Source of the DNA: Phycisphaerae bacterium
GTDB lineage: Bacteria > Planctomycetota > Phycisphaerae > Phycisphaerales > UBA1924
Assembly: GCA_016795005.1 (NCBI GenBank)
Contig: JAEUIV010000148.1
Coordinates: 1-32,690 of the forward strand
Reading direction: 5' to 3'
Length of the DNA stretch: 32,690 nt
Position 1 is the first letter of the stretch, and every line of letters starts with the position of its first letter. The notes beneath the pieces were generated by a model that was given only the letters and a program-made list of their open reading frames with translations, did no database searches and had not been told where the DNA came from. Made by a program: the position numbers and the translations under genes. Shown here one piece after another: positions 11,658 to 30,889 of the stretch.

Positions 11658-11778
11658 GCCGCGGCATTCTGCCACAGAACACGGCAAGTCCGGGAAGTCG
11701 TCGTCCGACGGAGCGCGCCAGGCGTCGAGCCGGCGAGCGGTTCAAGCCGGAGGCGTTCGCAGGGTGATCGGGAGGGTT

Positions 11779-14933: not shown

Positions 14934-15289
14934 ACCGATCCGCCATCCGATGTCCCGGCGGGAGTTCTCGGACGGGCAAAGTCCCAGAGAAACGTGCGCG
15001 GCAGCGCCGCGGCGCGCGGGCGCATTCCGTCTGGGTTGCCTCTGCCGTCGATCGGGGCGGGGCCGCGGGCACTTGGCGTCCCAGGCCTTGTGCAACCACT
15101 TATTCAAACCGATGTTCCGTTCGTCCCGCTCGTTGGCGGGGCGTCGGTTGAAGCCTCGGATGGTCCGGGCGGCCGACTTCGTCAGGGCGCGTCGGCGAGT
15201 TGAATCCGGCGCGCACAGAGGAAGCGGAACCCCGGCAAGCCGGGATCGGCCGCGGCAGTCGAGGCGGCAGCCTCAAGGAGTTTGACGCC
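14934..15289. other. 356-nt gap before the pilus locus
   Basis: I see no supported gene here. An open frame exists on the plus strand from 14950 to 15285 but its composition (Arg- and Ser-rich) looks like a GC-rich shadow. A short AT-richer patch (ACTTATTCAAACC, 15097-15109) may belong to the promoter of the pilus operon, but no good -35/-10 pair was found. CCCGGCAAGCCGGG near 15232-15245 is a small hairpin. Confidence 0.4.
15275..15280 (+). promoter_or_regulatory. Shine-Dalgarno of the first pseudopilin
   Basis: AAGGAG, 9 nt before the ATG at 15290. It decides this start over upstream in-frame codons that would put extra residues before the prepilin signal. Confidence 0.8.
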
Positions 15290-15781
15290 ATGCGCAATCG
15301 TCGGACAAGCGGATTCACACTGGTTGAGATTCTGATCGTCGTCGTGATCCTCGGCATCCTTGCCGCGATCGTGATCCCGCAGTTCACCAGCGCTTCGCAG
15401 GAGGCGATCAAGGGTGCGCTGCAGAGCCAGCTGCAGACCATTTCGAGCCAGGTCGAACTCTACCGGGTTCGGAATGCCGGTCAGCTCCCGGACAACGCGG
15501 CCGAAGCCGATCCTGTCGGCGTCGCGGCTTCCGAGAATGGCTGGGGCGTCCTCGTCGCCGGCCAGTACCTGAAGGAACAGCCCTTCAACGGCTTCACCGG
15601 CTCGTCGGCGCTCGATGTCGGCACCGAGGGCGACCAGCTCGCCGCGAACGTCAAGACCGGCAACGGCTGGGTCTTCCATGATGACTCGACCGCGCAGAAC
15701 GGCATCGTCTTCGCCTACGGCTTTGACGGCACCTTCCTCTCGACCGAAGCCGGTTACACCCCCGCGAACACCATCCCCTGA
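15290..15781 (+). CDS. GspG-like pseudopilin, first of a tandem pair
   Basis: A 163-residue protein with a classic prepilin signal: MRNRRTSG|FTLVE, Gly at -1 and Glu at +5 (residue 13), then a hydrophobic N-terminal helix to about residue 30 (LIVVVILGILAAIVIPQF). The body has a helix (LQSQLQTISSQVELYRV) and the blocks NGWGVLVAGQYLK and PFNGFTG. The order is that of major pseudopilins of type II secretion (GspG-like), and the same blocks recur in the next gene. It would be cleaved and N-methylated by a prepilin peptidase not found in this window and then polymerised by the PilBMNOPC machine encoded downstream. Its place at the head of the locus suggests the major subunit. Confidence 0.9.
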   Translation: MRNRRTSGFTLVEILIVVVILGILAAIVIPQFTSASQEAIKGALQSQLQTISSQVELYRVRNAGQLPDNAAEADPVGVAASENGWGVLVAGQYLKEQPFNGFTGSSALDVGTEGDQLAANVKTGNGWVFHDDSTAQNGIVFAYGFDGTFLSTEAGYTPANTIP

Positions 15782-15817
15782 CGGGCATGAACGTTCACGG
15801 ATGACTTGATCAACCCT

Positions 15818-15855
15818 CGCGGGCGGGCCTTTGAACGGGACCGCCCGCCTTCGCG
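15818..15855 (+). other. strong hairpin between the two pseudopilin genes
   Basis: CGCG plus GGCGGGC (15818-15828) pair with GCCCGCC and, after a TT bulge, CGCG (15843-15855), around a 14-nt loop. No T-run follows, so partial termination or mRNA stabilisation of the upstream pseudopilin message is more likely than a full terminator. Confidence 0.5.
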
Positions 15856-15908
15856 GGAACGCGCTGATCCGCGGCGGCGAGTGTCCGCCCTGCACTGCGA
15901 GAACTCTC

Positions 15909-16367
15909 ATGCACGCCGCCCATCGACGCAACGGGTTCACACTCATCGAAGTCCTGATCGTCGTGGTCATCCTCGGGATCCTCGCGGCGATCGTGATCCC
16001 ACAGGTCGCCGGAGCGAGCCAGGATGCCCTGAAGTCCGCGCTGAGGCGTCAACTCCAGTCGATCGACGACATCATCGAACTCTACCGCGTGAACAACGCC
16101 GGCACGTTGCCCACAGCCGACCCGGTCAGCCCCTTCGGCGCGGGCGGGGGCTGGGGCGTCATGGTGGGCGCCGGGTATCTGAAGCAGGCGCCGTTCAACG
16201 GGTACACGGGCGGCTCGGTTGTCGGCGTCGGCACCACGCGCGCCGCCGCCGCCGCGCTCGCGCAGGGCACGCCGGAAGGATGGCTCTACGTCCTCACCGG
16301 CGACCGACTCGATGTCTTCGCCGCCGGATACGACGAACAGTCGAACAAGCTCAGCAGCGAGCCTTGA
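15909..16367 (+). CDS. GspG-like pseudopilin, second of a tandem pair
   Basis: A 152-residue paralogue of the preceding gene. MHAAHRRNG|FTLIE has Gly at -1 and Glu at +5 (residue 14); the N-terminal helix LIVVVILGILAAIVIPQ is nearly identical to its neighbour. The shared blocks ELYRVNNAGTLP, GWGVMVGAGYLK and PFNGYTGG make a tandem duplication the simplest reading, while the C-terminal half has diverged. It ends in a Ser/Glu tail without cysteines. The ATG at 15909 is chosen to give the short basic leader; only a weak purine stretch (GAGAA) serves as ribosome site. It could be an alternative or minor subunit. Confidence 0.88.
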   Translation: MHAAHRRNGFTLIEVLIVVVILGILAAIVIPQVAGASQDALKSALRRQLQSIDDIIELYRVNNAGTLPTADPVSPFGAGGGWGVMVGAGYLKQAPFNGYTGGSVVGVGTTRAAAAALAQGTPEGWLYVLTGDRLDVFAAGYDEQSNKLSSEP

Positions 16368-16413
16368 ACCCGATCGATCGCCCGGCTCCGCGCGCCACGG
16401 GCGACGTCCAAAT

Positions 16414-16431
16414 CATAATCTCAATATGAGA
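16414..16431 (+). promoter_or_regulatory. -10-like box and overlapping inverted repeat before the GspH-like gene
   Basis: CATAAT (16414-16419) is followed 6 nt later by an ATG at 16426. Overlapping it is the perfect inverted repeat TCTCA-ATA-TGAGA (16419-16431). The patch is AT-rich against a GC-rich background. It may drive the GspH-like gene and onward pil genes, with an operator at the start point. Confidence 0.45.
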
Positions 16432-16536
16432 AATCAGGCCCGAGAACGCGGCATCCCGATGGGGCGATTGCGCCGTCTGGACCGCCGGGTCTTCCGCGCG
16501 GCCGGCTTAGGTGCCGCGATGTTCCGGTCGATCTGA
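16426..16536 (+). CDS. candidate leaderless small open reading frame, 36 codons
   Basis: ATG at 16426 opens a 36-residue frame ending at TGA 16536. It is strongly basic, with about ten arginines (MRNQARERGIPMGRLRRL and on). The -10-like CATAAT sits exactly 6 nt before the ATG, the same spacing as at 3357 and 4358. It lies in the 233-nt gap before the GspH-like gene. No homology is claimed. It could be a leader peptide, a real small protein, or merely the 5' leader of the next gene. Confidence 0.25.
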   Translation: MRNQARERGIPMGRLRRLDRRVFRAAGLGAAMFRSI

Positions 16537-16600
16537 TTGAGACCGGCGCGGAGGCATCGAGTGCTTGTGACGTGCTCGGTCCGGCGAAGGGAGCGATCGC

Positions 16601-17236
16601 ATGGTCCGAAGTCTGCCCGCCTCAGCCCGACGAAGAACGTCCGCGTTCACGCTCATCGAGGTCATGCTCGTGGTCGTCATGCTCGGCATCGCCGGCGTGC
16701 TCGTGATCCCGTCCATGTCGCAGACCAATGTCCTCCGCGTGCAGTCCACCGTCCGGACGCTCGTCGCCGACATCGCGTTCCTGCAATCCGACGCGGTGGC
16801 CTATCAGTCACGCCGCGCCATCGTCTTCGGCGTGGTCCCGCGGAAGAACCCGGACAGCGGGACGTGGGAGTTTGTCGCCGGGAACGGGTACACCCTCGCG
16901 GAGGTCCGCGGCGCATCGCTCGACCTCGCCACCGATGCGCTGATCGATCCCGATGACTCATCACGGCCCTTCGGGCGGGATTTCTCGGAAGCCCGCTACG
17001 CGGGCGCCGTTCTGTCCAACCCGTCGTTCAACGGCGACTCCATGCTGATCTTCGACGAGTTGGGCGGACCCGTCGCCGAACTCCAGGGACCCGATGCGGG
17101 CAACGGGGGATCGGTCCGCATCTCCGGCTCCGGGGCGGCGTTCCGAGTGGATATCCAGGCGTACACCGGCCGCGTCCGGGTGACGAAGATCGCCGACATC
17201 AACGACCCGGAGGGCGCGTTCGGCGGCAACGGGTAG
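16601..17236 (+). CDS. GspH/FimT-like minor pseudopilin
   Basis: A 211-residue pseudopilin. The signal reads MVRSLPASARRRTSA|FTLIE with Glu at +5 (residue 20) but Ala instead of Gly at -1. After the hydrophobic helix (VMLVVVMLGIAGVLVIP) comes QSTVRTLVADIAFLQSDAVAYQSRRAIVFGV, the GspH/FimT-type layout, then a long beta-rich domain. Minor pseudopilins of this type sit at the tip of the pseudopilus and help start assembly. Good AAGGGAG 7 nt before the ATG. It is 27 nt before pilM and may be the first gene of that operon. C-terminus ends GGNG, no odd features. Confidence 0.85.
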   Translation: MVRSLPASARRRTSAFTLIEVMLVVVMLGIAGVLVIPSMSQTNVLRVQSTVRTLVADIAFLQSDAVAYQSRRAIVFGVVPRKNPDSGTWEFVAGNGYTLAEVRGASLDLATDALIDPDDSSRPFGRDFSEARYAGAVLSNPSFNGDSMLIFDELGGPVAELQGPDAGNGGSVRISGSGAAFRVDIQAYTGRVRVTKIADINDPEGAFGGNG

Positions 17237-17263: not shown

Positions 17264-18436
17264 ATGAACCTCCCCGACGTACTGAACTCACGCTACCTGC
17301 CGCTGGGCATTGACCTCAGCGGCTCGGTGCTGCGCGTGCTCCAGTTCAGGCGCCGTTCACGAGGGCTTGAAGTCGCCTCGGCCGTCCGGGCTGATCTCGC
17401 TCCGCCGGGCGGATCGCCGTTCGAGCCGGGCAGCGATGCCCACGTGCAGGCGATCTGTTCCGCGCTGCAGAAGCGGGTCGCGGCGCGCGAGTTTCACGGT
17501 CGGTCCTGCGTCATCACGCTGGACGATCGGCTCGTCCGGATCCGCTCGGTTCGTCTGCCGCGCATGCCCGACGACGAACTCGATCGTGCCGTGGCGATTG
17601 ACGCGCCCGGACGCCTCGGGTTCTCCGAGAAGGAAGCCGCGGAGGTGGCCTGGATCCGGGCCGGCGAGGTCAGACAGGGCGACGATTTCCGAGACGAGAT
17701 CATCATGATCGGCGCGTCGCGCGATCCGACCGAACGGCTGGTCTTCGGCCTCGCGGCGATCGGCCTGCGACCGCTCGCGGTCGAACCATCCTTCGCAGGC
17801 GTTGCACGGGCGTACTCGCGCACACTTCGGCGGAACGACGACCAGGACGTGGTCAAGGTCATCGCGGATATCGGAACACTCTCGACGGGGGTGACCATCA
17901 TCCGCGGTCAGTCGGTCGTCTTTCACAAGCCGATCGAGATCGGCGGCGACGCGATGACGAAGGCCGCCGCGACCCGGCTCGGCTTGGAGTACCAGTCGAT
18001 CCTCGATCTTCGCCGGCAGAGAATGTCAGGGGCCCCGATCGAGGCGCGCGTGGAGCGCGCGATGTTCGAGGCGATCCGCCCGACGATCATGGACATCGCC
18101 AACGAAGTGTCCCTGTGCCTGCGGTATTTCGGGGTTTCGTTCCGGGGCATGCGCACCGAGTCGTGCATTGTCACCGGCCGCGATGCCGCCGAGCCGCAAC
18201 TCGCGGAGTTGGTGGGCGAGGTTCTTCGCCTGCCGACCGCTGTCGGGAATCCGTTCGACGGAATCGACGTGCGGCGGTCGCCCCTGATCAACACTTCCTC
18301 CTGCACCAGCGAATGGGCCGTGGCCGCCGGTCTCGGGCTGAGGAGCCTCAAGCCCGCCGCGTCGCGCGTCCCCGGGCATCGACGGCAGGCGGACGGAACC
18401 AGGAGTTTGTCCCCGGCGAGAAGGGAGGCGGCATGA
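17264..18436 (+). CDS. pilM: PilM-like actin-fold assembly protein
   Basis: A 390-residue cytoplasmic protein of the PilM family, an actin/FtsA-like ATP-binding protein that links the pilus ATPase to the inner-membrane PilN/PilO complex. The N-terminal phosphate loop LGIDLSGSVLRVLQ (residues 13-26), central VIADIGTLSTGVTIIRG and IEIGGDAMTKAAA, and the late CIVTGRDA match actin-like phosphate and adenosine motifs. A long C-terminal tail rich in Arg/Ser/Ala (about 365-390) is extra. It is followed directly by pilN with a 4-nt overlap (ATGA), which also fixes the pilN start. Confidence 0.9.
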   Translation: MNLPDVLNSRYLPLGIDLSGSVLRVLQFRRRSRGLEVASAVRADLAPPGGSPFEPGSDAHVQAICSALQKRVAAREFHGRSCVITLDDRLVRIRSVRLPRMPDDELDRAVAIDAPGRLGFSEKEAAEVAWIRAGEVRQGDDFRDEIIMIGASRDPTERLVFGLAAIGLRPLAVEPSFAGVARAYSRTLRRNDDQDVVKVIADIGTLSTGVTIIRGQSVVFHKPIEIGGDAMTKAAATRLGLEYQSILDLRRQRMSGAPIEARVERAMFEAIRPTIMDIANEVSLCLRYFGVSFRGMRTESCIVTGRDAAEPQLAELVGEVLRLPTAVGNPFDGIDVRRSPLINTSSCTSEWAVAAGLGLRSLKPAASRVPGHRRQADGTRSLSPARREAA

Positions 18437-19119
18437 GCCTTTCCATCGACCTCATGCCGCGGAACTGCCGCGAAGTCCTGAACCGCCGCATGATGGTGCG
18501 ACGGTGGACGCTGGTCTACGCCCTCACCGCCACGGCGATCTTCGGGACGTATTGGTTTCTTTCGCTCGCCAACCACGTCGCGGGGCAGGACCGCGACGCC
18601 CTGGCGATCAAGGTGAAGATCAACTGGAGCCGGAACGAGGTCGTGAACCAGTTGCTCAAGGAGATCAATGAAATCGAGGAGGCGGTGACCCGCTACAACC
18701 GCCTGGCGTGGCCCGTACGCGCCAGCGAAGCGATCGACGCGATCTCCGCCGCAACGCCGCCCGCGGTCTCACTGATCGAACTCTCGATCACGCCGAAGGA
18801 AGAGAAGCCCGCGGCGGGAACCCCCCGCCCGGACGGAAGCAACAAGAAACGCGGAGCCTCGGCGCCTCCCTCGGGAGGTGCGGCCGAGACATCCAAAGTC
18901 CTGATGCGGATCGAGATGGAAGGTCTGGCGCCGGATGATTCCGCGGTCGCACGGTTTGTTTCAGCGCTGGACGCTCACCCGCTCTTCAGCCGGGTAGCGC
19001 TCGAGTTCACCCGCGCCAAGGGGCTGGCAAAGGGAGAAGTCCGCAACTTCCGTATCACGGCGGACATCGACCTTTCGCTCCGCTATTCGTTCACCGACGC
19101 GACCACGGGGGACGACTGA
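18433..19119 (+). CDS. pilN: PilN-like inner-membrane assembly protein
   Basis: A 228-residue bitopic membrane protein. The N-terminal MSLSIDLMPRNCREVLNRR is the PilN cytoplasmic tail that docks to PilM (usually INLLP-like), followed by one membrane helix at about 26-47, a coiled stretch (KEINEIEEAVTRYNRL), a Pro/Gly-rich linker and a ferredoxin-like domain at the C-terminus (RFVSALDAHPLFSRVAL). The open frame extends upstream inside pilM, but the ATG at 18433 overlaps the pilM stop (ATGA) and gives the family N-terminus. It forms the alignment subcomplex with PilO and PilP. Confidence 0.88.
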   Translation: MSLSIDLMPRNCREVLNRRMMVRRWTLVYALTATAIFGTYWFLSLANHVAGQDRDALAIKVKINWSRNEVVNQLLKEINEIEEAVTRYNRLAWPVRASEAIDAISAATPPAVSLIELSITPKEEKPAAGTPRPDGSNKKRGASAPPSGGAAETSKVLMRIEMEGLAPDDSAVARFVSALDAHPLFSRVALEFTRAKGLAKGEVRNFRITADIDLSLRYSFTDATTGDD

Positions 19120-19757
19120 TGCACCCGAAGCCGATCCACTTTGCCGCGGGATGGCTGCTCATCGCCCTGATCGGCGGCGCGGCGCTCGTCGTGCCGCCGG
19201 CAAAGGCGATGGGAAGAATCCGTCGAGAGGTCCGCGCGCTCAACGAGGAACTCGCGAAGCCCGCGGACGGGCCGGAGGTCTTCGAGCGACTGACCGCCGA
19301 CCTCGAACGCCTGAGAGAGTTCGGCAAGGGACGGATGACCCCCATCCCGAGAGACAGCAACGTCGCGGGACTGATGGGCATGCTGAGCGAGACGTTGAAC
19401 GATCTCGGGCTGAACCAGCGCGACATCACCACCCGCCCGCCGAAGTCGCACGGGGACGCCATGTCGATGCCCGTGACGATCGTGCTGAACGGACCCTTCA
19501 CGGCGGTCGCCCAGGCGATCAGCCGGATCGAGATGATGCCCCGCCTCGTCCGCGTTGAGCGGCTGCGCGTCACCACGGAACTTCCGAAGAAACCCGGGCC
19601 GAGCGAGGCCGGCGCCGAGCGTCGCGGGATCGTGCGGGCCGAGTTCTCGATCGATGCGTTCTATGCCCCGGATGCGACCCCAACCACGTCCGAGAAGTCT
19701 CAAGCGGGTTCCGTCGTCGGCGATCGCACGGGCGGCAGCGGGGGGGCAAGGCCATGA
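19119..19757 (+). CDS. pilO: PilO-like inner-membrane assembly protein
   Basis: A 212-residue protein with a short cytoplasmic start, one membrane helix (about 9-26), a coiled region with charged repeats (RIRREVRALNEELAK) and a ferredoxin-like C-terminal domain (MPVTIVLNGPFTAVAQAISRIEMMPRLVRVERLRV), the PilO/GspM architecture. A Gly/Ser tail follows. The start ATG at 19119 overlaps the pilN stop by one base (TGATG), and its stop overlaps pilP (ATGA), so translation is coupled. It should heterodimerise with PilN in the periplasm. Confidence 0.85.
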   Translation: MHPKPIHFAAGWLLIALIGGAALVVPPAKAMGRIRREVRALNEELAKPADGPEVFERLTADLERLREFGKGRMTPIPRDSNVAGLMGMLSETLNDLGLNQRDITTRPPKSHGDAMSMPVTIVLNGPFTAVAQAISRIEMMPRLVRVERLRVTTELPKKPGPSEAGAERRGIVRAEFSIDAFYAPDATPTTSEKSQAGSVVGDRTGGSGGARP

Positions 19758-20452
19758 GGCGGTACTGGATCACCTTCAAGTTGATGATCGAGCAGGAGAA
19801 GAAAAAGGCCTACGCCCTCGGCGTGCTCGGGCTGCTTCTGCTTGCTGCGCTCGTGCGGGCCGGCCTCACGCTTGGTCCGAGATCAAGCGCGGCGTCCCCG
19901 ACGACCGAAGTTTCCGGCATTTCGTCGCTGGCCAGCGCGGGGCGAGAGGCCGTCAGCCGGGCCATCGCGTCCGATGACGCGCTGCACGGCGGGCGATTCA
20001 TTGATATACCCAGATCGCCGCCCACCACGCGGAACCTGTTCGCCATGGACCCGTCGTGGTACGCGCCCGAGTTCCAGGATGCCGCGGAGTCAGACGCGCC
20101 GCCGGAACAGTCGGAACAAGCGACACAGATTCCTCGCGGCGGAGGGTACTCGGAAGGTGCTGGAGGGAAGCGCGTCGAATCCGCATCCCAGAACGCCGAT
20201 GACCTTGCGGAGCGCCAACGGGCGCAACTGCTTGAGGAGACAACAGGTTGGAGACTTTCGAGCGTGGTGATGGGTGAGCGGCCGATCGCGGTGGTGGAGG
20301 TCCCACCCATCGGAGGTCGCGGCGCCCCGCGCTCAAATGTTGTTCGAGTGGGACAGCCGCTGCGAGAGTGGCTCGTCATCGAGATCACCTCGTCCGCGGT
20401 CGTGCTTGAGAAGCAGAAGGTCAGGGTCAGATTGTCGCTCGCCAAGTCGTAA
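19754..20452 (+). CDS. pilP: PilP/GspC-like inner-membrane protein
   Basis: A 232-residue protein with an N-terminal membrane helix (about 21-36, ALGVLGLLLLAAL), a long low-complexity linker, and a C-terminal beta domain (WRLSSVVMGERPIAVVE, VRVGQPLREWLVIEI, VLEKQKVRVRLSL) like the homology region of GspC and PilP that contacts the secretin. PilP is usually a lipoprotein; here there is a membrane helix without lipobox Cys, closer to GspC. The name is assigned by position and order. It overlaps pilO by 4 nt and is separated from the secretin by 60 nt. Confidence 0.75.
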   Translation: MRRYWITFKLMIEQEKKKAYALGVLGLLLLAALVRAGLTLGPRSSAASPTTEVSGISSLASAGREAVSRAIASDDALHGGRFIDIPRSPPTTRNLFAMDPSWYAPEFQDAAESDAPPEQSEQATQIPRGGGYSEGAGGKRVESASQNADDLAERQRAQLLEETTGWRLSSVVMGERPIAVVEVPPIGGRGAPRSNVVRVGQPLREWLVIEITSSAVVLEKQKVRVRLSLAKS

Positions 20453-20512
20453 CACGTGAAGCAGGCGGGATGCGGACACGCTTCCCGGAAACGGAATCAA
20501 GGAGTCGAAGAA

Positions 20513-22666
20513 ATGAACCTCTCCCGCACGGGTCGAATCGATCGTCTGGCCGTCAGCGCGTGCCTGTCCCTGTTTGTCGCGGCGGGCACCACGGCCCAAA
20601 CCCAGCCCGCCACGGGACAGCCGACCAACACCCCATCGCAAACCGGCACGGAAGGCCACGGATCATCATCCAAGTCAACCACGAACTCCCGCCCCGCGAC
20701 CAAGCCCGGCACCTACACGCACGGCGGCTCAAAGGATGACGTCGCGCCAACGACGACGCCCGCCGCGAACGGGACCAGCGCACCGACTCCCGCTCCGGCG
20801 CCCGCGGAGGCATCCACTCCGGCCCCCATGCTGATTCCACCAACGCAGCCCAGGTTCCCCGAGGACGTGCCGGTCTATGACCAGGCGGCCGCCCCGGCCG
20901 ATCCGAACGCCACCAAGCCCGACATCACGGTCTCCGAGTACCAGACCGTGGACATGTTCGTGCAGGACGAGGACCTCGCCAACGTCCTCCAGATGCTCTC
21001 GCTCCAGAGCCATCGCAACATCGTCGCCAGCAAGGACGTTTCGGCGCACGTCACCGCAAATCTCTACGGCGTGACGCTTTACGAAGCCCTCGATTCGATC
21101 CTCCATGTCAACGGCTACGGCTACGTCGAGAAAAACAACTTCATCTACGTCTACACCCTCGATGAACTGGCGCAGATCCAGGCGCAGGACCGGCAGATCG
21201 TGTCCAAGGTCATCAATCTCAGTTACCTCAACGCCAACGACGCCGCGGAGTTCGTCTCGCCGCTCCTCTCGGCGAAGGGTCAGATCAAGACCAACGGCGA
21301 TGTCGGCTCCTTCTCGATCCCGGAGGACAGCCCGACGGGAGATGAGCAGTTCGCCCTCGCCAGCACGCTCGTCGTCTTCGACTACCCGGAGCACGTCGCC
21401 GAGATCGAAAAACTCATCACCAACCTCGACACCAAGCCGGCCCAGGTGCTCGTCGAGGCGACCATCCTCCAGGCGACACTCACCGAGTCCAACGCGTTCG
21501 GCGTGGACTTCGCGTTCCTCAACGGCGTCAACATGACCGACTTCCTGGGCCTCGGCGGGTTGCTCGGCTCATCGAACGTCCTGAACAACGGCGCCGACTT
21601 CGTCCCGGGCGACAGCCGGGGCTCCTCGGTCGTGTCCACGCCGGGCAACACCGCCGGGCCGGGCACCTTCAAACTCTCGATCCTCCACGACGACATCGGC
21701 GTCTTCATCCGCGCCCTCGACGAAGTGTCGGACGTCTCGATCGTCTCGAACCCGAAGGTCCTCGCCCTGAACCGCCAGTCGGCAAAGGTCGATGTGGGAC
21801 GCAAGATCGGTTACCTCAAGAGCACCACGAACAACGGCGTGACCGAGCAGGATGTCGAGTTCCTGCCCACCGGCACATCGCTCGCCTTCCGCCCCTTCAT
21901 CTCGAAGGACGGGCTGATCCGCATGGAACTCAAGCCGAAGGTCTCGGAAGGCATCATCAACGAATACACCGACAAGACCGGGCACACCGTCACCGTCCCC
22001 GACGAGATCACCCAGGAGATCACGACCAATGTCATCGTGCCCGACGGCTCGACGGTCGTGCTGGGCGGCCTCTTCCGCGAGCAGACATCACTCAAGCGCA
22101 GCCAGGTGCCGGGACTGGGTGACATCCCGCTCGTCGGCGCCGCGTTCCGGGGACACGACGACTCCACGAGCCGCTCCGAGGTCATCTTCATGATCAAGCC
22201 GACCATCATGAACGACAAGAATCTCCTCGCACAAGGGGAGAAGGCCATCGGCTTCACCGAGCAGGTCCGCGCCGGATCGCGCCAAGGACTGCTCCCGTGG
22301 AGCCGCGAGAAGCAGACATCGCAGTTGAATGTCCGCGCGGAAAAACTCGCCGCCGAAGGCAAGAAGGACGAAGCGCTCTACACGCTCCGCCGCTCGCTCG
22401 AACTCAGCCCCGCACAGCCCGAGGCGCATCGACTGCACGAGCGACTCTCGGGCGACACGAACAAGTGGCCCAGCCGGAGCATGCTCGAAACCATCGTCGG
22501 CGGCGAAGCCGCGGCCCGCGCCCAGGCGATGCCCGCGACCCCATCAACCGAACCGCCGCTCTTTGCGGAATTCTTCTCCTTCATCCAGTCGCCGACGACA
22601 TCCCCCGAGGGTGAATCCACGCAGAACCCGAGCCGCGACATCGCCTCCAGCCCGACGAACGACTGA
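20513..22666 (+). CDS. pilQ: PilQ/GspD-type secretin with TPR-like C-terminal extension
   Basis: A 717-residue outer-membrane secretin. Signal peptide to about residue 29 (ending FVAAGTTAQ), then a Pro/Thr/Ser-rich linker to about 140. An N-domain (VDMFVQDEDLANVLQMLSLQ, residues 146-216) is followed by N1-type repeats, the secretin core (about 415-570) with PDGSTVVLGGLFREQTS and VPGLGDIPLVGAAFRG, the hallmarks of the channel. Residues 602-650 form TPR-like helices (RAEKLAAEGKKDEALYTLRR). The ATG at 20513 is fixed by AAGGAG 8 nt upstream; the frame is open to 20456. It lies 38 nt before a TPR lipoprotein that may act as its pilotin. Confidence 0.93.
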   Translation: MNLSRTGRIDRLAVSACLSLFVAAGTTAQTQPATGQPTNTPSQTGTEGHGSSSKSTTNSRPATKPGTYTHGGSKDDVAPTTTPAANGTSAPTPAPAPAEASTPAPMLIPPTQPRFPEDVPVYDQAAAPADPNATKPDITVSEYQTVDMFVQDEDLANVLQMLSLQSHRNIVASKDVSAHVTANLYGVTLYEALDSILHVNGYGYVEKNNFIYVYTLDELAQIQAQDRQIVSKVINLSYLNANDAAEFVSPLLSAKGQIKTNGDVGSFSIPEDSPTGDEQFALASTLVVFDYPEHVAEIEKLITNLDTKPAQVLVEATILQATLTESNAFGVDFAFLNGVNMTDFLGLGGLLGSSNVLNNGADFVPGDSRGSSVVSTPGNTAGPGTFKLSILHDDIGVFIRALDEVSDVSIVSNPKVLALNRQSAKVDVGRKIGYLKSTTNNGVTEQDVEFLPTGTSLAFRPFISKDGLIRMELKPKVSEGIINEYTDKTGHTVTVPDEITQEITTNVIVPDGSTVVLGGLFREQTSLKRSQVPGLGDIPLVGAAFRGHDDSTSRSEVIFMIKPTIMNDKNLLAQGEKAIGFTEQVRAGSRQGLLPWSREKQTSQLNVRAEKLAAEGKKDEALYTLRRSLELSPAQPEAHRLHERLSGDTNKWPSRSMLETIVGGEAAARAQAMPATPSTEPPLFAEFFSFIQSPTTSPEGESTQNPSRDIASSPTND

Positions 22667-22704: not shown

Positions 22705-23970
22705 ATGGCCACACACTCACATCGAAACGTTCGGGCTTCGAGCCTCATCGCGCTCCCGCTCGGGTTGCTCTGCATCCTCGCCGCCGGCTGCCAGAGCGGT
22801 CACGGCCAGCACACCGCCGAGTTCAAGGAACAGGCGACGCAACGGATGAACGGCGTCAAGGCCGCCACCTCGTTCGACATGGCTCAGCAGCAGTTCCTCT
22901 CGGGCGACCTCGAAAAATCACTCGCCAGCATCGAACAGTCGATCGCGCTGAACGACAAGGTCGCACGCAGCCACGTTCTGCGCGGACGGGTGCTCATCGA
23001 GATGGGTCGACTGGAAGCCGCGCTGACCTCGTTCAACAATGCGATCGCCCTCGACGAGAAGAACGCCGACGCGCACTACTACAGCGGGATCGTCTACGAA
23101 CGGTTCAGCAACTTCGACGACGCCATGCAGGCCTACCAACGGGCCGCCGCCTGCGACCCGACCAACCCGCAGTTCCCGATCGCGGCGGCGGAGATGCTCA
23201 TCGACCAGGAGAGATTCGATGAGGCGGAGGCCGCGCTGACCCCCGCACACTCCACCTTCCAGCACAACGCCGGGATACGCCAGACACTCGGGCACATCGC
23301 GTCCCTCCGCGGGAACCACGAACGCGCCGCTCAATACTTCGGCGAAGCCGCCCTCCTCGCGCCGAGCGACCCCTCCATCCTTGAAGATCAGGCCCGGTCG
23401 TTCATGACCCTCGGCCGCTTCGGCGAGGCCGAGTCCACCCTCCGCCGACTCCTCGCGAAGCAGGGAGGCGCCGCCCGCAATGATCTCCAGCACCTCCGCG
23501 CACGCGCGCTCATGGCGCTCGATCAGCCCGTCGAGGCGCGCGAGGTTCTTGTGAAGATCACGTCCGACGCGACCTCAAGCGCCGACGCCGCCGTCTGGAT
23601 CGACCTCGGCAACGTCGCGCTCATGCTGAAGGATGGCTACCGCCTCCGGGAGGCGGGTCAACGACTCATGGCGATGACACCACGATCCGCCGAGGGATAC
23701 CTCTTCATGGCCCTCTGGCAACGAGACAGCGGCAAACTCGACGCCGCCGCCAAGACGCTCGAACGCGCCGTCGCGCTCGCGCCGAATGATCCCATGCCCG
23801 CCCTGCTCCGGGGCATGATCCTCGCCGACATGGGACAGAGCACCGCCGCAAGGCAGGCGTTCGCCGAGGCGCTCCGCCGCGATCCGACCAATCAGGAGGC
23901 CCAGCGATTGATGATGGGCCTGAATCAGACCCCGGCGACCGGGCTGGTCGGCGCCAGCGTCGAACCCTAG
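22705..23970 (+). CDS. TPR-repeat lipoprotein
   Basis: A 421-residue lipoprotein with lipobox LAAGC (Cys29) and tandem TPR repeats through nearly all of the rest (for example SLASIEQSIALNDKVARSHV, ALTSFNNAIALDEKNADAHY, AMQAYQRAAACDPTNPQF). TPR lipoproteins next to secretins (PilF/PilW class) help the secretin assemble in the outer membrane, so this is the likely role here, inferred from place and architecture. GAAGGA precedes the ATG at 22705. Histidine kinase gene starts 13 nt later. Confidence 0.85.
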   Translation: MATHSHRNVRASSLIALPLGLLCILAAGCQSGHGQHTAEFKEQATQRMNGVKAATSFDMAQQQFLSGDLEKSLASIEQSIALNDKVARSHVLRGRVLIEMGRLEAALTSFNNAIALDEKNADAHYYSGIVYERFSNFDDAMQAYQRAAACDPTNPQFPIAAAEMLIDQERFDEAEAALTPAHSTFQHNAGIRQTLGHIASLRGNHERAAQYFGEAALLAPSDPSILEDQARSFMTLGRFGEAESTLRRLLAKQGGAARNDLQHLRARALMALDQPVEAREVLVKITSDATSSADAAVWIDLGNVALMLKDGYRLREAGQRLMAMTPRSAEGYLFMALWQRDSGKLDAAAKTLERAVALAPNDPMPALLRGMILADMGQSTAARQAFAEALRRDPTNQEAQRLMMGLNQTPATGLVGASVEP

Positions 23971-23983
23971 TCCGCGCTTCAGC

Positions 23984-25480
23984 ATGATCAGCACCCGTTC
24001 CATTCTGCTCGGCGCCGCGGGAGTGATCGTGCTCTCGGCGCTCTGCACTGGATCGGCGTGGACCGCCCTGCGTCTGGCTCGGGACGAAACCGCCGAGGCG
24101 TGGAAATGGTGCATCGTCGCCGTCGCCATCGCCGGACCACTCGCGGCGGCGCTCGCGGCACGGGCCGCGATCCGCGAGGGCGTCCTTACGAAACTCCGCG
24201 CATCCCTTGAGGTCGAGGGAAGCGCGGGCCTCTCCTGCATCGATGTGCCCGCGTGGGTGCGCCCGCTCTGCGAGGCCTTCAACCGTCGGCTGACGCAGGA
24301 GACCCAGCGAGCCGATCTGCTCACCGGCCGCCTCCGCGAAGCCGAGATTCGGTTGAGCATCGCCGAGGCCGAGCGACGCCACACCGAGACCATTCTCCAA
24401 TCGCTCCGCGATGCCGTGATCGTCACCGACCCGTTCAACGAACTGACGCTCGCGAACGCCTCGGCCGCGAGGCTCCTCGGGTTTGACCAGTCGGGTTCGA
24501 CCCACAAGCCCATCGAGGAAATTATCAAGGACGACGAACTCCGCCGGATGATCAAGGAAGTCCGGCAATCGGGCATGCTCTCCAAGCAGAGACACGTCGA
24601 GCATTCCATGCAGCCCGCCGGCCCGGCGCGGAACTCCGTCCCGCCCGCGTCGTTTGATGTCACCATCGCGTGCCTCCCGCCCCGGCTTCCCGAGGGGACC
24701 GCGGGCGCGGCGAAGGAAGTGGGGGGAGTCGTCACCATCCTCCGCGACATCACGAGAGAGAAGGAGATCAGCCAGATGAAGTCCGACTTCGTCTCGCAGG
24801 CGTCGCACGAACTGCGCACGCCGATCGCCTCCATCAACGCCTACGTGGAAATGCTCCTCGACGCCGAGGCCCAGGACGAGGAAACGAGGCAGGAGTTCTA
24901 CGGCATCATCAAGACCGAGACGGAGCGCCTGTCCCGCATGATCGACAACATGCTGAACATCAGCCGCATCGAAGCCGGCATCGTCTCCGTGGACCGCACC
25001 GAAGTCGATTTCGCCAAGGTGATCCGCGAAGTCATCGAGACCATGCAGCCGCAGGCGAAAGCGAAGAACATCACGCTGCAGGAACGCATCGGCCCGCTGA
25101 TCTACACCGCCGAAGCCGACCGCGACATGATGCACCAGGTCATCCTGAACCTGGTCTCCAACGCCATCAAGTACACGCCGGAAGGAGGCCGAACCACCGT
25201 CTCGGTGGAAATGGACGATGCGTCGCGGTCCATCCTCGTCGCGGTCCAGGACACCGGGCTGGGCATCCCGCCGGAATCCATCGACAAGGTCTTCGGCAAG
25301 TTCTTCCGAATCGAGTCCTACAAGCGCATGGCCAAGGGCACCGGCCTCGGGCTGAATCTCGTCAAGCACATCGTCGAGACCGTTCACCACGGCCAGGTCG
25401 GAGTCACCAGCCAGGTCGGCATGGGAAGCCGATTCTGGTTCACCGTTCCATTCGAGTTCCAGTCGGGAAGGGAGTCCTGA
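23984..25480 (+). CDS. PAS-containing sensor histidine kinase in the pilus operon
   Basis: A 498-residue membrane kinase. Two N-terminal membrane helices lie at about residues 5-28 and 40-62. A PAS-like domain follows at about 132-255 (ILQSLRDAVIVTDPFNELTLAN). The HisKA domain has MKSDFVSQASHELRTPIASI with phospho-His275. The ATPase domain has the N box at Asn393 (ILNLVSNAIKYTPEGG), DTGLG at 423-427 and GTGLGL at 452-457. It follows the TPR lipoprotein by 13 nt and precedes the receiver gene by 3 nt, so the two are almost surely a cognate pair. The stimulus is unknown; the large N-terminal region is cytoplasmic after the membrane helices. Confidence 0.92.
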   Translation: MISTRSILLGAAGVIVLSALCTGSAWTALRLARDETAEAWKWCIVAVAIAGPLAAALAARAAIREGVLTKLRASLEVEGSAGLSCIDVPAWVRPLCEAFNRRLTQETQRADLLTGRLREAEIRLSIAEAERRHTETILQSLRDAVIVTDPFNELTLANASAARLLGFDQSGSTHKPIEEIIKDDELRRMIKEVRQSGMLSKQRHVEHSMQPAGPARNSVPPASFDVTIACLPPRLPEGTAGAAKEVGGVVTILRDITREKEISQMKSDFVSQASHELRTPIASINAYVEMLLDAEAQDEETRQEFYGIIKTETERLSRMIDNMLNISRIEAGIVSVDRTEVDFAKVIREVIETMQPQAKAKNITLQERIGPLIYTAEADRDMMHQVILNLVSNAIKYTPEGGRTTVSVEMDDASRSILVAVQDTGLGIPPESIDKVFGKFFRIESYKRMAKGTGLGLNLVKHIVETVHHGQVGVTSQVGMGSRFWFTVPFEFQSGRES

Positions 25481-25483
25481 ACG

Positions 25484-25918
25484 ATGAGCGATCGGACAGA
25501 TGAACAGGGCCGGACCGCCCCGGCACGCCTCATCGTCGTGGACGACGAGGTACACATCGTGCATGTCCTGGCCCTCAAACTGCGCAACGCGGGCTACGAC
25601 GTCCGCACCGCCGCCGACGGCGAAGAGGGCTGCGAGATGGCCACCCAGGACCCGCCGGACCTCATCATCACCGATCTGCAGATGCCCTTCCTCAGCGGCC
25701 TCGAGATGTGCGCCAGGCTCAAAAAGAACCAGCCCACCGCCACGATCCCCGTCATCATGCTCACCGCACGGGGACACGCCCTGTCACAAAGCGACCTGAA
25801 CTCAACCAACATCCGCCTCGTGCTCAGCAAGCCCTTCAGCCCCAGACAGGTGCTCGAAGAAGTGGAGCGCATCCTCGGCCGGGCATCGCCCGGGACCACG
25901 GTCAAGGAGGCCGCGTGA
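25484..25918 (+). CDS. single-domain response regulator (REC only)
   Basis: A 144-residue receiver domain with no output domain. The acidic pocket is Asp20, Asp21 and Glu22 (VVDDE), phospho-acceptor Asp64 (IITDLQMPF), Thr94 and Lys116 (LSKPFSPRQ). Such proteins work by binding another protein. It starts 3 nt after the kinase and overlaps the HD-GYP gene by 4 nt (GTGA), so phosphoryl transfer from the kinase and onward to the HD-GYP protein or the pilus machine is a reasonable model, not shown. Confidence 0.93.
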   Translation: MSDRTDEQGRTAPARLIVVDDEVHIVHVLALKLRNAGYDVRTAADGEEGCEMATQDPPDLIITDLQMPFLSGLEMCARLKKNQPTATIPVIMLTARGHALSQSDLNSTNIRLVLSKPFSPRQVLEEVERILGRASPGTTVKEAA

Positions 25919-27597
25919 CCCACGACAGCAGCCATCTCGACTCGACGACGCCGCAGGCTCAGGTGGAAGAGCGGTGCCGCGCGCTTGGGATCGCCACCTG
26001 GCGGTTCGACGCCGACGGGAGCCGCCTCACAGGCCCCACCGATCCCGGCGCGTTCGGGCGGTGGCTCCGATCCGCTCCGGTTGAACAGCGCGTCGCTTCT
26101 CTGCTCGCCGAGTGGCAGGCATGCGAGACCCCTTTGCCCCACCAGGTCGCCGAAGGATTCTGGCTCATCCCCGTTGTGGAGCCGCACCGGAAAAGGCGCC
26201 GGGGCATGCTCGTCGCCGCGTTGTTCACGCCCGAGTTCCTGACATCGGCACTCGTGCGCGAGATCTGCCACCAGGCGGCCCTGCCGATCGATGCCGTTCA
26301 AGCCGACTTTGCCGGGCGAGCCGTCTTCTCACGAGAGATCGTTGACCGCATGGCGCGGGTCCTCTCGTGGAGCCAGGCGGATTTGGATGCCATCTCGCGC
26401 GATCAGGCATTGATCGCCGATTTCAGCCGAAAACTTGCCGAGTCCTACGAGGAGATCACCTTGCTCCAGAAGCTCGGCCGGGCAATGAACCAGGTCGCCC
26501 AGCCCAAGCGATTCGTCGCGCTCGCCTGCGATGAACTCCAGAAGACGCTTCCATTCCAGTGGATCGCCGTGAAGTTCACCCCCGATCGCCGTCTCGCACG
26601 ATCCATGGCGGGGAGGCTCTACCTCAGCGGGGATGCGCCCTGCGACTCATCGCGGCTTGAATCGCAGACCTCAAGGTTTCTCGAAGACCTCACGCCGGTC
26701 GATGTGCGCGTGGTCCCGCCCGAACTGTGCGAGCCAATCGGGTTCGGGTCATCGCAGCTTCTCATTCACCCCGTCGCACGCGATGGGCAGGTCGTCGCCG
26801 CGCTCTTCGCGGGAAACAAGCGAGGCGAAGACCCGCAGGTCAGCAGCACCGACATCAAACTGCTCGAAGCCGCCGCCGCCTACCTCGCCATCCTGCTCGA
26901 CAACTCCATCCTCTACGACGACCAGCAACTCATGTTCATCGGGACCCTCGAAGCACTCACCTCCTCCATCGACGCCAAAGACCCCTACACCTGCGGCCAC
27001 TCGGAGCGCGTCGCCGAACTGGCCGCGGCTCTCGCCAAGGCCCACGGACTCGACGACGAATCCGTCGAACGCATACGCCTCGCCGGGGTCGTGCACGATG
27101 TCGGAAAGATCGGCGTTCCCGAGGCCGTCCTCTGCAAGACCGGACGCCTCACGGAAGCCGAGTTTGCACAGATCAGGCTGCACCCGGAGATCGGATACCA
27201 GATCCTCAAGGACATCCCGCATTTCGAAGACCTCCTCCCGGGCGTCCTCTTCCATCACGAACGCTTCGACGGACGCGGATACCCCCGGAACCTCAAGGGT
27301 GAGGACATCCCCCTCATGGCACGCATCATCGGGCTGGTCGATGCCTTCGATGCCATGAGCAGCAACCGTACCTATCGCTCCGCCATGGCACGCGAGCGAG
27401 TCATGGAAGAACTCGCCGACAACGCCGGAACCCAGTTTGATCCGGCGCTCGTCCAGTCATTCGCCCGCGTGGACCTGGCTCGTTACGACGAACTGGTCGA
27501 AAAGCACCAGACCGCGAGCGCCACGGGCAGCGGCGGGCTTCGAATTCGCCGATCATCCACGCTCGACCCGGGACAGGTCGGAGGGATGGCCGCATGA
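25915..27597 (+). CDS. GAF-HD-GYP protein, probable cyclic di-GMP phosphodiesterase
   Basis: A 560-residue protein. Residues 1-180 are a region of unknown family. A helical linker and a GAF-like domain follow at about 180-335 (EITLLQKLGRAMNQVAQ, then FQWIAVKFTPDR). Residues 340-530 are an HD-GYP domain: CGHSERVAELAAAL, HDVGKIG with metal-binding His394/Asp395, HHERFDGRGYP (residues 447-457, GYP intact) and DAFDAMSSNRTYR. HD-GYP proteins degrade cyclic di-GMP, a signal that controls pili and motility. The GTG start at 25915 overlaps the receiver stop (GTGA); the open frame extends upstream but inside the neighbour. No diguanylate cyclase is in the window. Confidence 0.93.
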   Translation: MTHDSSHLDSTTPQAQVEERCRALGIATWRFDADGSRLTGPTDPGAFGRWLRSAPVEQRVASLLAEWQACETPLPHQVAEGFWLIPVVEPHRKRRRGMLVAALFTPEFLTSALVREICHQAALPIDAVQADFAGRAVFSREIVDRMARVLSWSQADLDAISRDQALIADFSRKLAESYEEITLLQKLGRAMNQVAQPKRFVALACDELQKTLPFQWIAVKFTPDRRLARSMAGRLYLSGDAPCDSSRLESQTSRFLEDLTPVDVRVVPPELCEPIGFGSSQLLIHPVARDGQVVAALFAGNKRGEDPQVSSTDIKLLEAAAAYLAILLDNSILYDDQQLMFIGTLEALTSSIDAKDPYTCGHSERVAELAAALAKAHGLDDESVERIRLAGVVHDVGKIGVPEAVLCKTGRLTEAEFAQIRLHPEIGYQILKDIPHFEDLLPGVLFHHERFDGRGYPRNLKGEDIPLMARIIGLVDAFDAMSSNRTYRSAMARERVMEELADNAGTQFDPALVQSFARVDLARYDELVEKHQTASATGSGGLRIRRSSTLDPGQVGGMAA

Positions 27598-27929
27598 AAA
27601 TCTCCCACCAGGACTACGAGACCGTGAGCGTCCTCACGATCTCGGGAGATTTCATCCACGACGACGTCGAGCACTTCAAGCGCGTGGCCTCGGAGCGACG
27701 GGCCGCGGGCATCAAGCACGTCCTGATCAACTGCGAAAGCCTCGAGTTCATCGACTCCGCTGGGCTGGAATGCTGGCTCCGTCTCCAGGAATCCCTGGGC
27801 GAGGCCGGGGGACAGATGCGCCTGCTCCGGCCGGACCAGTTGCTCGCGAAGATCCTCGCGCTCACTCGTCTGGACCTCGCCTTCGAGGCGCATCCGAATA
27901 TCGAGAGCGCGATCAGGAGCCTGCGATGA
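27594..27929 (+). CDS. STAS-domain protein (anti-sigma-factor-antagonist fold)
   Basis: A 111-residue stand-alone STAS domain. VSVLTISGDF, VLINCESLEFIDSAGLECW and a C-terminal helix form the SpoIIAA/RsbV fold. Ser55 after Asp54 in IDSAGL is at the position phosphorylated in SpoIIAA and RsbV by an anti-sigma kinase. No such kinase or phosphatase is in the window, so a partner protein is to be found elsewhere, or it acts on the pilus machine. It overlaps the HD-GYP gene (ATGA, 27594-27597) and the pilB start (ATGA, 27926-27929), so its synthesis is linked to both. Confidence 0.9.
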   Translation: MKISHQDYETVSVLTISGDFIHDDVEHFKRVASERRAAGIKHVLINCESLEFIDSAGLECWLRLQESLGEAGGQMRLLRPDQLLAKILALTRLDLAFEAHPNIESAIRSLR

Positions 27930-29656
27930 CCGAGCCGACCACGCTCCCGAGCGCTCCCTCCGGCGCCAGGCGCCAACTCGGCGATCGACTCGTCGAAGAC
28001 GGACACATCACGCCCGAGCAACTCCGACAGGCGCTCGAAGAACAGGCCTCCAAGGGACACTCCAAACTCCTCGGCGAGGTCATCGTCGAACTGGGCTTTG
28101 CGCCCGAGCACGTCGTGCTCGAGGTGCTCGCGAAAACCTACGGCGTGCCCTTCGCGCGGATCACCCCGCGCCTCGCCGATCCACGGGCCATCGAAACCCT
28201 CCCGCGCGAGTTCATCGACTCGCACGGCGTCCTGCCGCTCTTCTGCGTGGACAACGTCCTCACGATCGCCGTCAGCGAACCCGCGAACCTGTTCGTCGTC
28301 GAGGAGGCGGAGCGCGTCAGCGGCAAGAAGGTCCAGGTCGTGGCGTCAACCAGCCAGGACATCCGCTCGACCCTCCAGGCCTACCTCCCTTCCGCGAACG
28401 TCTTTGTCATCGACGAAATCTACGAAGACCTCGACATCCGGCAGTTCAACGCGCCCGATGCGCAAGCCCTCGACCTCAGCCAGCTGGAGCAGGTCGCCGG
28501 CCAGTCGCCCGTCATCAAACTCGTCAACTACGTCCTCTTTCACGCCATCCAGGACCGCGCCTCGGACATCCATATCGAGCCGGAGGATCATCGCTGCCGA
28601 GTTCGATTCAGGATCGACGGCCGACTCGTCCAGAAACTCAATCCGCCTTACCAGATGCACCCCGCCGTCGTCTCGCGCGTCAAGATCATGGCGGGCATGG
28701 ACATCTCCGAACGACGCATGCCCCAGGACGGGGACATCCACGTCGTCATCGAGGGAAGGCCCGTCGATCTGCGCATCTCGACCATGCCGGGAAAGCACGG
28801 CGAAAAAATCGTCATCCGAATCATCGACAACCGCAACGCAATCATCCCTTTCGAGAAGATGGGAATGTCCGCCGAGATGGTCGAGCCGTGGCGCAAGGTC
28901 ATCCGCTCGTCCAACGGCATGGTCCTCGTGACCGGGCCGACCGGATCGGGCAAGTCGTCGATGCTCTACAGCGTGATCTCCGAGATCGCCACGGATGAAC
29001 TGAACATCTCCACCGTCGAGAACCCGGTCGAAGCACAACTTACGAACATCAATCAGTTCCAGGTCAACGAGAAGGCGGGCTTCACCTTCGCCAAGGCGCT
29101 CCGCGCACTCCTGCGCCAGGACCCGGACGTCATCATGGTCGGCGAAATCCGCGACCTCGAAACCGCCACCATCGCCACCCAGGCCGCGCTCACCGGGCAC
29201 CTCCTCCTCTCCACCCTGCATACCAACGACGCCGTCTCCGCCGTCACCAGGCTCCACAACATGGGGATCGAGACATACCTCGTCGCCGCCATGCTTCGCG
29301 GCGTCCTCGCCCAGCGACTCGTTCGCAAGATCTGCCCGCACTGCAAGGAGGCCTACACCCCCGACGCCGCCACGCGCGAGAGCATCGAAGCCGTCGTCGG
29401 CCCGTGCAACGAACTGCACCGCGGGCCGGGATGCTCACGCTGCCGAGGCACGGGCTACGCCGGCCGACTCGGCATCTTCGAGTTGTTCGTCCCGAGCGAA
29501 TCGATCCTCGAACAGGTCGCCGCGGGCGCCACCCTCCAGGAACTCCGAGCGTTGCTCAGCCGCGGCGGGCACAAGACGCTCCGGGACGATGGAATGTTCA
29601 AGGCCGCCGCCGGCCTCACGACCGTTGAAGAAGTCATCCGAGCCTCCGCACTCTGA
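27926..29656 (+). CDS. pilB: PilB/GspE-type assembly ATPase
   Basis: A 576-residue hexameric ATPase that powers pilin polymerisation. The N-terminal T2SSE_N/MshEN domain (GDRLVEDGHITPEQLRQALEE, residues 17-80) could bind c-di-GMP in some family members. The ATPase has Walker A GPTGSGKSS (Lys343), the Asp box reads ENPVE (366 is Asn, usually Asp), Walker B IMVGEIRD with Glu407, His box region LLSTLHTNDA, and a zinc-binding tetracysteine (Cys470/473 and Cys503/506). The start is set by the overlap with the STAS stop; the open frame extends further upstream inside other genes. pilC follows 12 nt later. Confidence 0.95.
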   Translation: MTEPTTLPSAPSGARRQLGDRLVEDGHITPEQLRQALEEQASKGHSKLLGEVIVELGFAPEHVVLEVLAKTYGVPFARITPRLADPRAIETLPREFIDSHGVLPLFCVDNVLTIAVSEPANLFVVEEAERVSGKKVQVVASTSQDIRSTLQAYLPSANVFVIDEIYEDLDIRQFNAPDAQALDLSQLEQVAGQSPVIKLVNYVLFHAIQDRASDIHIEPEDHRCRVRFRIDGRLVQKLNPPYQMHPAVVSRVKIMAGMDISERRMPQDGDIHVVIEGRPVDLRISTMPGKHGEKIVIRIIDNRNAIIPFEKMGMSAEMVEPWRKVIRSSNGMVLVTGPTGSGKSSMLYSVISEIATDELNISTVENPVEAQLTNINQFQVNEKAGFTFAKALRALLRQDPDVIMVGEIRDLETATIATQAALTGHLLLSTLHTNDAVSAVTRLHNMGIETYLVAAMLRGVLAQRLVRKICPHCKEAYTPDAATRESIEAVVGPCNELHRGPGCSRCRGTGYAGRLGIFELFVPSESILEQVAAGATLQELRALLSRGGHKTLRDDGMFKAAAGLTTVEEVIRASAL

Positions 29657-29668
29657 ACGCTCCTGATC

Positions 29669-30889
29669 ATGCTCACGTTCGCCTACAAAGCACGAGACGC
29701 ACGCGGCGAACCCGTCGCCGGCACGATCGACGCGCGCTCGCAGGCCGACGCGCTCAGGCTCCTCGACCGCGAGGGAAAAACCGTCACCGATATCCGCCTC
29801 GGCGCCAAGCCGACGGACACGGACGAACTCCGCGTCCGCCACGCCGCCGGGACCGTCCGCCGCGAGGAAGTCATCTCGTTCGCCGGGCAACTCGCCGTGA
29901 TGCTCGACACGGGGGTGCCGCTCGCCGACGCGCTGGATGCATTCGTAAAATCCGCAAAAGCGGGGGGGCTGAGGCGCGTCACCGAGGTCGTCGCCGATCG
30001 AATCCACAGCGGCGTCCCGTTCTCCACCGCCATCGAGGAGTTTCCAAAGGTATTTCCCAACCTCATGGTCAGCCTCCTGAAGGCCTCCGAAGCCTCCGGG
30101 AAAATGGCCGAAATGCTCGGCCGAGTCTCGGACTACCTCGCAAAGGAACGCCGCACCGCACGCCAGATCAAGGGAGCGCTCACCTACCCGATGGTCATGA
30201 TCAGCATCGCGGTGATTGTCACCGGCTTCCTCGTCGTCTGGGTGTTGCCGAGGTTCGCCAAGATCTATGAATCGCGCGAGGCCGCCCTTCCTGTCATGAC
30301 ATCGGTCCTGTTGAAGTCCAGCCGATTCCTGATTCAGAACTGGATGCTGGGCGCCGCCGTCGCGTCCGCCCTGGTCGTCGGGTGCGTCGCCCTGCGCCTC
30401 ACCGCCGGCGGACGACGATTCATCGACACGCTCAAACTCAGGGCGCCCGTCATCGGCCCCATGTTCCGCCTCTTCTATCTCACCCGCGCCACGCGGACGC
30501 TCGGCACGCTCCTCGCCTCGGGTGTCCCGCTGCTCGAAGCAGTCCGAATCGTGCGAAGAGTCACCGAGAACGCGCACTGGTTCGCCCTCTGGAACGACAT
30601 GGAAAACGCCATGACCGGCGGACGAACCATCGCCGAAGTCGTCGAACCGTCCTGGCTCATCCCGCCGCAGGTCGCCCAGATGATCGCCGCCGGCGAGCGC
30701 TCCGGGCGGCTCCCGGAGGTGCTCGACAAGGTCTCGGCCTCCGCCGAGGCGGACCTGGACGAAGCCGTCAAGGCCGCCACGCAGCTCATCGAGCCGGCGA
30801 TGATCGTCTTCATGGGCGTGACCATCGGCGGAATCGCCATCGCGCTCCTCCTGCCGATCTTCAACGTCGCCAACGTCGTCGCGCACTGA
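29669..30889 (+). CDS. pilC: PilC/GspF-type platform protein
   Basis: A 406-residue polytopic inner-membrane protein on which the pilus is built. It has two T2SSF domains, the first with FAGQLAVMLDTGVPLADALDAF and the second with YLTRATRTLGTLLASGVPLLEAV. Membrane helices lie at about residues 174-198, 225-245 and 377-402. The N-terminal LTFAYKARDARGEPVAGTIDA is family-typical. It ends the operon; 43 nt separate it from the nitrilase, which is probably a separate unit. Confidence 0.94.
   Translation: MLTFAYKARDARGEPVAGTIDARSQADALRLLDREGKTVTDIRLGAKPTDTDELRVRHAAGTVRREEVISFAGQLAVMLDTGVPLADALDAFVKSAKAGGLRRVTEVVADRIHSGVPFSTAIEEFPKVFPNLMVSLLKASEASGKMAEMLGRVSDYLAKERRTARQIKGALTYPMVMISIAVIVTGFLVVWVLPRFAKIYESREAALPVMTSVLLKSSRFLIQNWMLGAAVASALVVGCVALRLTAGGRRFIDTLKLRAPVIGPMFRLFYLTRATRTLGTLLASGVPLLEAVRIVRRVTENAHWFALWNDMENAMTGGRTIAEVVEPSWLIPPQVAQMIAAGERSGRLPEVLDKVSASAEADLDEAVKAATQLIEPAMIVFMGVTIGGIAIALLLPIFNVANVVAH

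Follow-up and report, generated by a model that had tools for sequence, protein, structure and literature searches.

In a stretch of 32,690 nucleotides (nt) from a Phycisphaerae bacterium (GenBank assembly GCA_016795005.1, contig JAEUIV010000148.1, positions 1 to 32,690 of the forward strand; hereafter the window), an operon for a pilus or secretion machine carries, directly before the gene of its motor ATPase PilB, four genes encoding a histidine kinase (HK), a receiver (REC), a GAF-HD-GYP protein and a STAS protein. The same order recurs in other planctomycete genomes, and there is good support for regarding the genes as one unit with PilB as its target. We put about even confidence in the reading that they are dedicated to regulating the neighbouring PilB/GspE-type motor, through local cyclic di-GMP (c-di-GMP) and a STAS switch; its detailed wiring is what we infer below. 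The genes concerned are:

23984..25480, + strand: HK, a PAS histidine kinase with two transmembrane segments (Pfam PAS, HisKA, HATPase_c)
25484..25918, + strand: REC, a single-domain receiver (Response_reg, 1e-23)
25915..27597, GTG start, + strand: PAS-like/GAF/HD-GYP protein, a putative c-di-GMP phosphodiesterase (HD_5, 8.8e-39)
27594..27929, + strand: STAS protein, SpoIIAA-like, with D54-S55 (STAS, 7.4e-13; TIGR00377 above cut-off)
27926..29656, + strand: PilB/GspE motor ATPase with an N-terminal MshEN domain (T2SSE, 7.9e-132; MshEN, 7.3e-18)

A preliminary description of the window had placed these four genes between a TPR lipoprotein and PilB, coupled by 3-nt spacing or ATGA/GTGA overlaps, and both the coordinates and the Pfam matches agree with it. 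HK starts 13 nt after the TPR gene and is followed by REC after 3 nt, the next three junctions are 4-nt overlaps (GTGA for REC/HD-GYP, ATGA for HD-GYP/STAS and for STAS/PilB), and PilB is separated from PilC by 12 nt. The same description had proposed to look for the order HK-REC-HD-GYP-STAS-pilB in other planctomycetes, and regarded as damaging an order unique to one genome or a linkage to pil genes by chance only. Using the HD-GYP protein as query, full-length homologues were obtained in most of 60 relatives, and the whole arrangement (PilM-N-O-P-secretin-TPR-HK-REC-GAF-HD-GYP-STAS-PilB-PilC, which we call system A) was complete, with its genes in the same order, in 40 other genomes from 14 families. 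Neither damaging outcome was therefore found, chance co-location of the genes is ruled out by this recurrence, and the observation is far more general than one genome. Thirteen of the 14 families belong to the class Phycisphaerae, and the fourteenth is f33, in whose genome G244 a cyclase gene is inserted between HD-GYP and STAS (genomes, contigs, loci and families are cited under our own numbers, prefixed G, C, L and f). Around the A operons of Phycisphaerae, GGDEF genes were looked for and none turned up. The 4-nt HD-GYP/STAS overlap is present in 19 of the 24 relatives examined, a slightly favourable count since starts were picked near the contact. An A-type STAS-PilB pair also occurs at G057:C2:47620-49740, in a genome which has no A-type full-length HD-GYP and may have lost it. 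The preliminary description had overlooked three further features: a second system, variants with a synthase, and STAS-PilB as the most widely kept kernel.

A search with a STAS profile showed that further families of Planctomycetota have a STAS gene immediately preceding PilB, with a changing set of genes upstream. HK-REC precedes the pair in G361 (f88) and G431 (f47), a GAF-GGDEF cyclase with an intact RYGGEEF motif stands directly before it in three f47 genomes, G276 (f84) and G207 (f61) (loci L292, L294 and L295 in f47, and L286 and L288), and HK-REC-HD-GYP-GGDEF in G244 (L191). In G067 (f13) the slot holds a degenerate GGDEF-like protein (L284:1833-3272), which lacks the GGDEF motif and has no Pfam match. 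Because these neighbourhoods across the phylum keep STAS-PilB while the slot before it varies, STAS-PilB is the most widely kept kernel, and the preceding slot is filled by a kinase/receiver, by an enzyme of c-di-GMP hydrolysis or synthesis, or by both. Two observations stand beside these: in G177 (f33; L192) a REC-HD-GYP-GGDEF series runs up to the contig end, and f47, f88 and f114 have further strong STAS matches.

The same partners are found, rearranged, in a second, anciently diverged pilus/secretion system. This system B, present in about 20 genomes, has the order HK-STAS-PilB-PilC-PilM-N-pseudopilins; REC-HD-GYP forms a unit of its own that faces this run, adjoining it or lying up to about 10 kb away. 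No A system is closer than another to the HK, STAS, PilB and PilC of system B, and a long, fully supported branch splits the A from the B PilBs. The HK tree also separates A from B kinases, and this separation is all it shows, a motif filter having removed most generic outgroup kinases. The HD-GYP tree tells a different history: the HD-GYP of system B branches from within the A radiation, with the family of the window as its neighbour, and holding the taxonomic order's A copies together without the B copy was rejected by the approximately unbiased (AU) test (p-AU 1.4e-5). Genomes of the window's family with system B show no A-type PilB. From this nesting and this absence it follows that REC-HD-GYP outlived the loss of the A motor; it behaves as a transferable pair, which moved to the other STAS-PilB system. 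Beside the REC-HD-GYP pair of one system-B cluster we noted an HDOD-GGDEF-REC protein (L053:5480-7603, in G057).

The catalytic motifs of the signalling proteins are intact. HK has two hydrophobic segments (about residues 7-26 and 40-62) and is of the classical HisKA type, which sets it apart from the Pil-Chp system with its CheA-type kinase bearing Hpt domains; its phospho-acceptor H275 is kept in the 25 sequences compared. REC consists of a receiver domain only (144 residues), so that the DNA-binding output of a PilS-PilR pair is lacking, and D20, D21, D64, T94 and K116 are invariant (25/25). The residues for a putative phosphotransfer from HK to REC are thus present. The HD-GYP protein has the HD pair, the HHExxDGxGYP motif and the further His/Asp ligands of its family, as H362, H394-D395, H423, H447-H448, D476 and G455-Y456-P457 are invariant, again in 25 of 25. 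Its AlphaFold (AF2) model is closest to PmGH (4mcw), with which it has the GAF-HD-GYP architecture and fold in common; it differs by an additional N-terminal domain and by Tyr358 in place of the Glu that binds the third metal in PmGH, for which reason a two-metal enzyme is expected (a matter of subtype, not of family membership). The Pfam GAF match is near threshold, and the N-terminal 135 residues are a well-predicted PAS-like domain to which no family was matched. The closest PDB sequence is the cGAMP-specific phosphodiesterase V-cGAP3 (5z7c), and the putative substrate is c-di-GMP, with 3'3'-cGAMP as an alternative. A kinase-receiver-HD-GYP chain is also known in RpfC-RpfG, where RpfG is a REC-HD-GYP fusion; here, all relatives seen have the receiver and HD-GYP as two genes. 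A Rosetta-stone fusion of REC to HD-GYP was looked for and rejected, no such frame occurring in the loci scanned.

The candidate receptor is the MshEN domain of PilB, a domain which binds c-di-GMP (PMC5013675). Residues 17-70 of the window PilB pass the NCBIfam model NF053729 of the c-di-GMP motif, with 53.3 bits for a cut-off of 38, and the model is passed by all seven STAS-linked PilBs tested. Of the five PilB paralogues in the window genome that are not linked to STAS, one reaches the cut-off, another is slightly below it and the remaining three are not matched. One PilB of this genome other than that of the window, on a contig without STAS (L006, on G000:C79), passes the model with 67 bits. 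In its N-terminal MshEN domain above the NCBIfam cut-off, the window PilB resembles the MshEN-controlled motors MshE of V. cholerae and PilF of T. thermophilus (PMC5013675, PMC11731258), from which it differs in two key motif residues and in having a c-di-GMP enzyme and STAS inside the motor operon. Taken from its sequence, binding of c-di-GMP by the window PilB is plausible.

STAS matches TIGR00377 (anti-sigma factor antagonist) above cut-off, and its D54-S55 aligns with the MDSSGL motif of SpoIIAA, which gives a phosphorylatable Ser after Asp; the pair is invariant in the 25 sequences compared, S55 being kept in all homologues compared. In the system-B cluster of G015, STAS, MshEN and T2SSE form one open frame without a stop (L218:9457-11535; G015:C3:279056-281131), direct evidence, in a single case, that STAS and PilB can work as one polypeptide. 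A SpoIIAB kinase adjacent to this STAS was considered as its partner and is ruled out, since the single clear RsbW-like kinase gene of the genome lies on C71 and adjoins another STAS.

Gene order, its conservation, intact motifs, enzyme swapping and the STAS-PilB fusion are what was observed; the contacts between proteins, the transfer of phosphate and the consequences for pilus or secretion, all of which we infer, would be as follows. The membrane-anchored PAS kinase would phosphorylate the stand-alone receiver, which, together with the PAS-like and GAF domains, would set the activity of the HD-GYP phosphodiesterase. The latter would lower c-di-GMP near the motor and leave less of the PilB MshEN domain bound to its ligand. 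As a serine phospho-switch, STAS would link the c-di-GMP enzyme with the motor, engaging PilB in one of its states and engaging or releasing the enzyme in the other. Since sister lineages hold a diguanylate cyclase in the same slot, the logic would be local c-di-GMP at PilB, with a sign set by the enzyme present. The preliminary description had likewise proposed a module acting on PilB through c-di-GMP, and conservation, the exchange of phosphodiesterase for cyclase, the NF053729 matches and the intact active sites favour it. The fusion, and the adjacency of STAS and PilB across the phylum, strengthen its suggestion of a competition by STAS for a partner on PilB.

Several observations weigh against the local c-di-GMP scheme. 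The exact consensus of the two MshEN motifs, (R/K/L)LG...Q, with R (or K/L) first and Q last (PMC5013675, PMC11731258), is not reproduced in the window PilB, where motif I opens with Q instead of R/K/L (position 1) and motif II has T instead of Q at position 24. Such deviations extend beyond the window: of 41 A sequences, 25 open motif I with Q, and in nearly all the last residue of motif II is not Q. HK has no match in two members of the class (G089 and G061), no SpoIIAB/RsbW-type kinase lies beside STAS, and the fusion is one case in a draft genome. In G007, G018 and G034, REC-HD-GYP is unlinked from motor genes, and G044 and G056 have both A and B with a single full-length HD-GYP, system B being there without its own REC-HD-GYP.

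The main rival is that STAS acts on PilB without c-di-GMP: phosphorylated or unphosphorylated STAS would bind PilB at its MshEN domain and gate assembly of the ATPase, HD-GYP would mainly serve global c-di-GMP or report via STAS, and PilB need not bind the nucleotide. STAS-PilB being the most widely kept pair, its one fusion, the invariant serine and the imperfect MshEN motif of system A would all fit, whereas the recurrence of a c-di-GMP enzyme in the slot before STAS and the match of every STAS-linked PilB tested to the c-di-GMP model do not, and we consider this rival rather unlikely. It is also unlikely that co-transcription serves expression timing only, with HK-REC-HD-GYP lowering bulk c-di-GMP and STAS taking part in a sigma-factor partner switch with an RsbW-like kinase elsewhere. 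The genome does have one clear RsbW-like kinase, six GGDEF proteins and four PilZ proteins, and TIGR00377 is named for anti-sigma factor antagonists; however, a different STAS adjoins the RsbW-like gene, and co-expression leaves unexplained the enzyme swapping, the recurrence by a second, diverged PilB and the fusion. Finally, large pil operons can stay stable over long times, and the order could be conserved by hitch-hiking without functional coupling, but this is very improbable and largely refuted by system B, where the partners recur rearranged, and by family f1, which lost the A motor genes and yet still has REC-HD-GYP close to PilB.

The machine itself is encoded in the same one-strand run of the window (PilM-PilN-PilO-(PilP)-secretin-TPR-HK-REC-HD-GYP-STAS-PilB-PilC), with pseudopilin genes upstream:

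15200..17236, + strand: pseudopilin genes upstream of PilM (N_methyl in three open reading frames; GspG-like, 4.3e-14, under its cut-off)
17264..18436, + strand: PilM (PilM_2, 7e-19; same position in relatives)
18430..19119, start approximate, + strand: PilN-like protein (PilN, 3.1e-6)
19119..19757, + strand: PilO-like protein (PilO, 7.5e-9)
19754..20452, + strand: protein in the PilP position (by position; homologues in the same slot of relatives; no Pfam family matched)
20456..22666, start may be later, + strand: secretin (Secretin, 2.2e-41)
22705..23970, + strand: TPR lipoprotein (Pfam TPR; lipobox LAAGC by eye)
29669..30889, + strand: PilC/GspF platform protein (T2SSF, 2e-57)

Its parts are of mixed type, PilM/PilN/PilO/PilQ-like on one side and with a GspG-like pseudopilin and GspE/GspF-like scores on the other, and all scores for the type IV pilus (T4P) and type II secretion system (T2SS) families are under the family cut-offs. 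The type is thus ambiguous between T4P and T2SS, and the "pilus" may be a T2SS-like machine. Two large proteins encoded upstream of the pil genes, at 9343-12657 (1104 residues) and 4885-6051 (388 residues), have no Pfam match.

Each half of this arrangement has known counterparts. The STAS protein HsbA binds the diguanylate cyclase HsbD when phosphorylated (PMC5085249), and BgrV and the STAS-like SiaC act on the cyclases BgrR and SiaD (PMC8457831). As here, a STAS or STAS-like phospho-switch is paired with c-di-GMP turnover; in those systems the targets are diguanylate cyclases and the outputs are flagellar, polysaccharide or biofilm, while here the enzyme is an HD-GYP protein, with a cyclase in its place in sister lineages, and the STAS gene adjoins that of a pilus/secretion ATPase. 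A c-di-GMP-linked protein input to PilB is known from FimX-PilZ-PilB (PMC8389850), but the window operon has no gene for FimX (GGDEF-EAL) or PilZ, and has HD-GYP and STAS instead. The literature searched, including a 2024 review on PilB, gave no earlier case of STAS as a partner of PilB. What would be new is the joining, in one operon, of a c-di-GMP-controlled pilus/secretion motor and STAS-linked c-di-GMP switching, each of a known kind. More tentatively, and with somewhat less than even confidence, STAS proteins could be regulatory subunits of PilB/GspE motors throughout Planctomycetota, of a class not recognised until now. Such a subunit would be a serine phospho-switch that docks on MshEN and brings in either a hydrolase or a synthase of c-di-GMP, the two being exchangeable, so as to place the motor under the control of an on-site c-di-GMP pool of its own.

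The arrangement bears on the general question of how a c-di-GMP circuit can act on its own target alone when many such circuits coexist: here a hydrolase or a synthase is genetically locked to a motor with a c-di-GMP-type domain, the small phospho-switch always standing between them. Planctomycete pili and secretion machines are little studied, and the proteins concerned are small; if the proposal is true, STAS would bind PilB in them, and swapping the enzyme would reverse the sign of the control.

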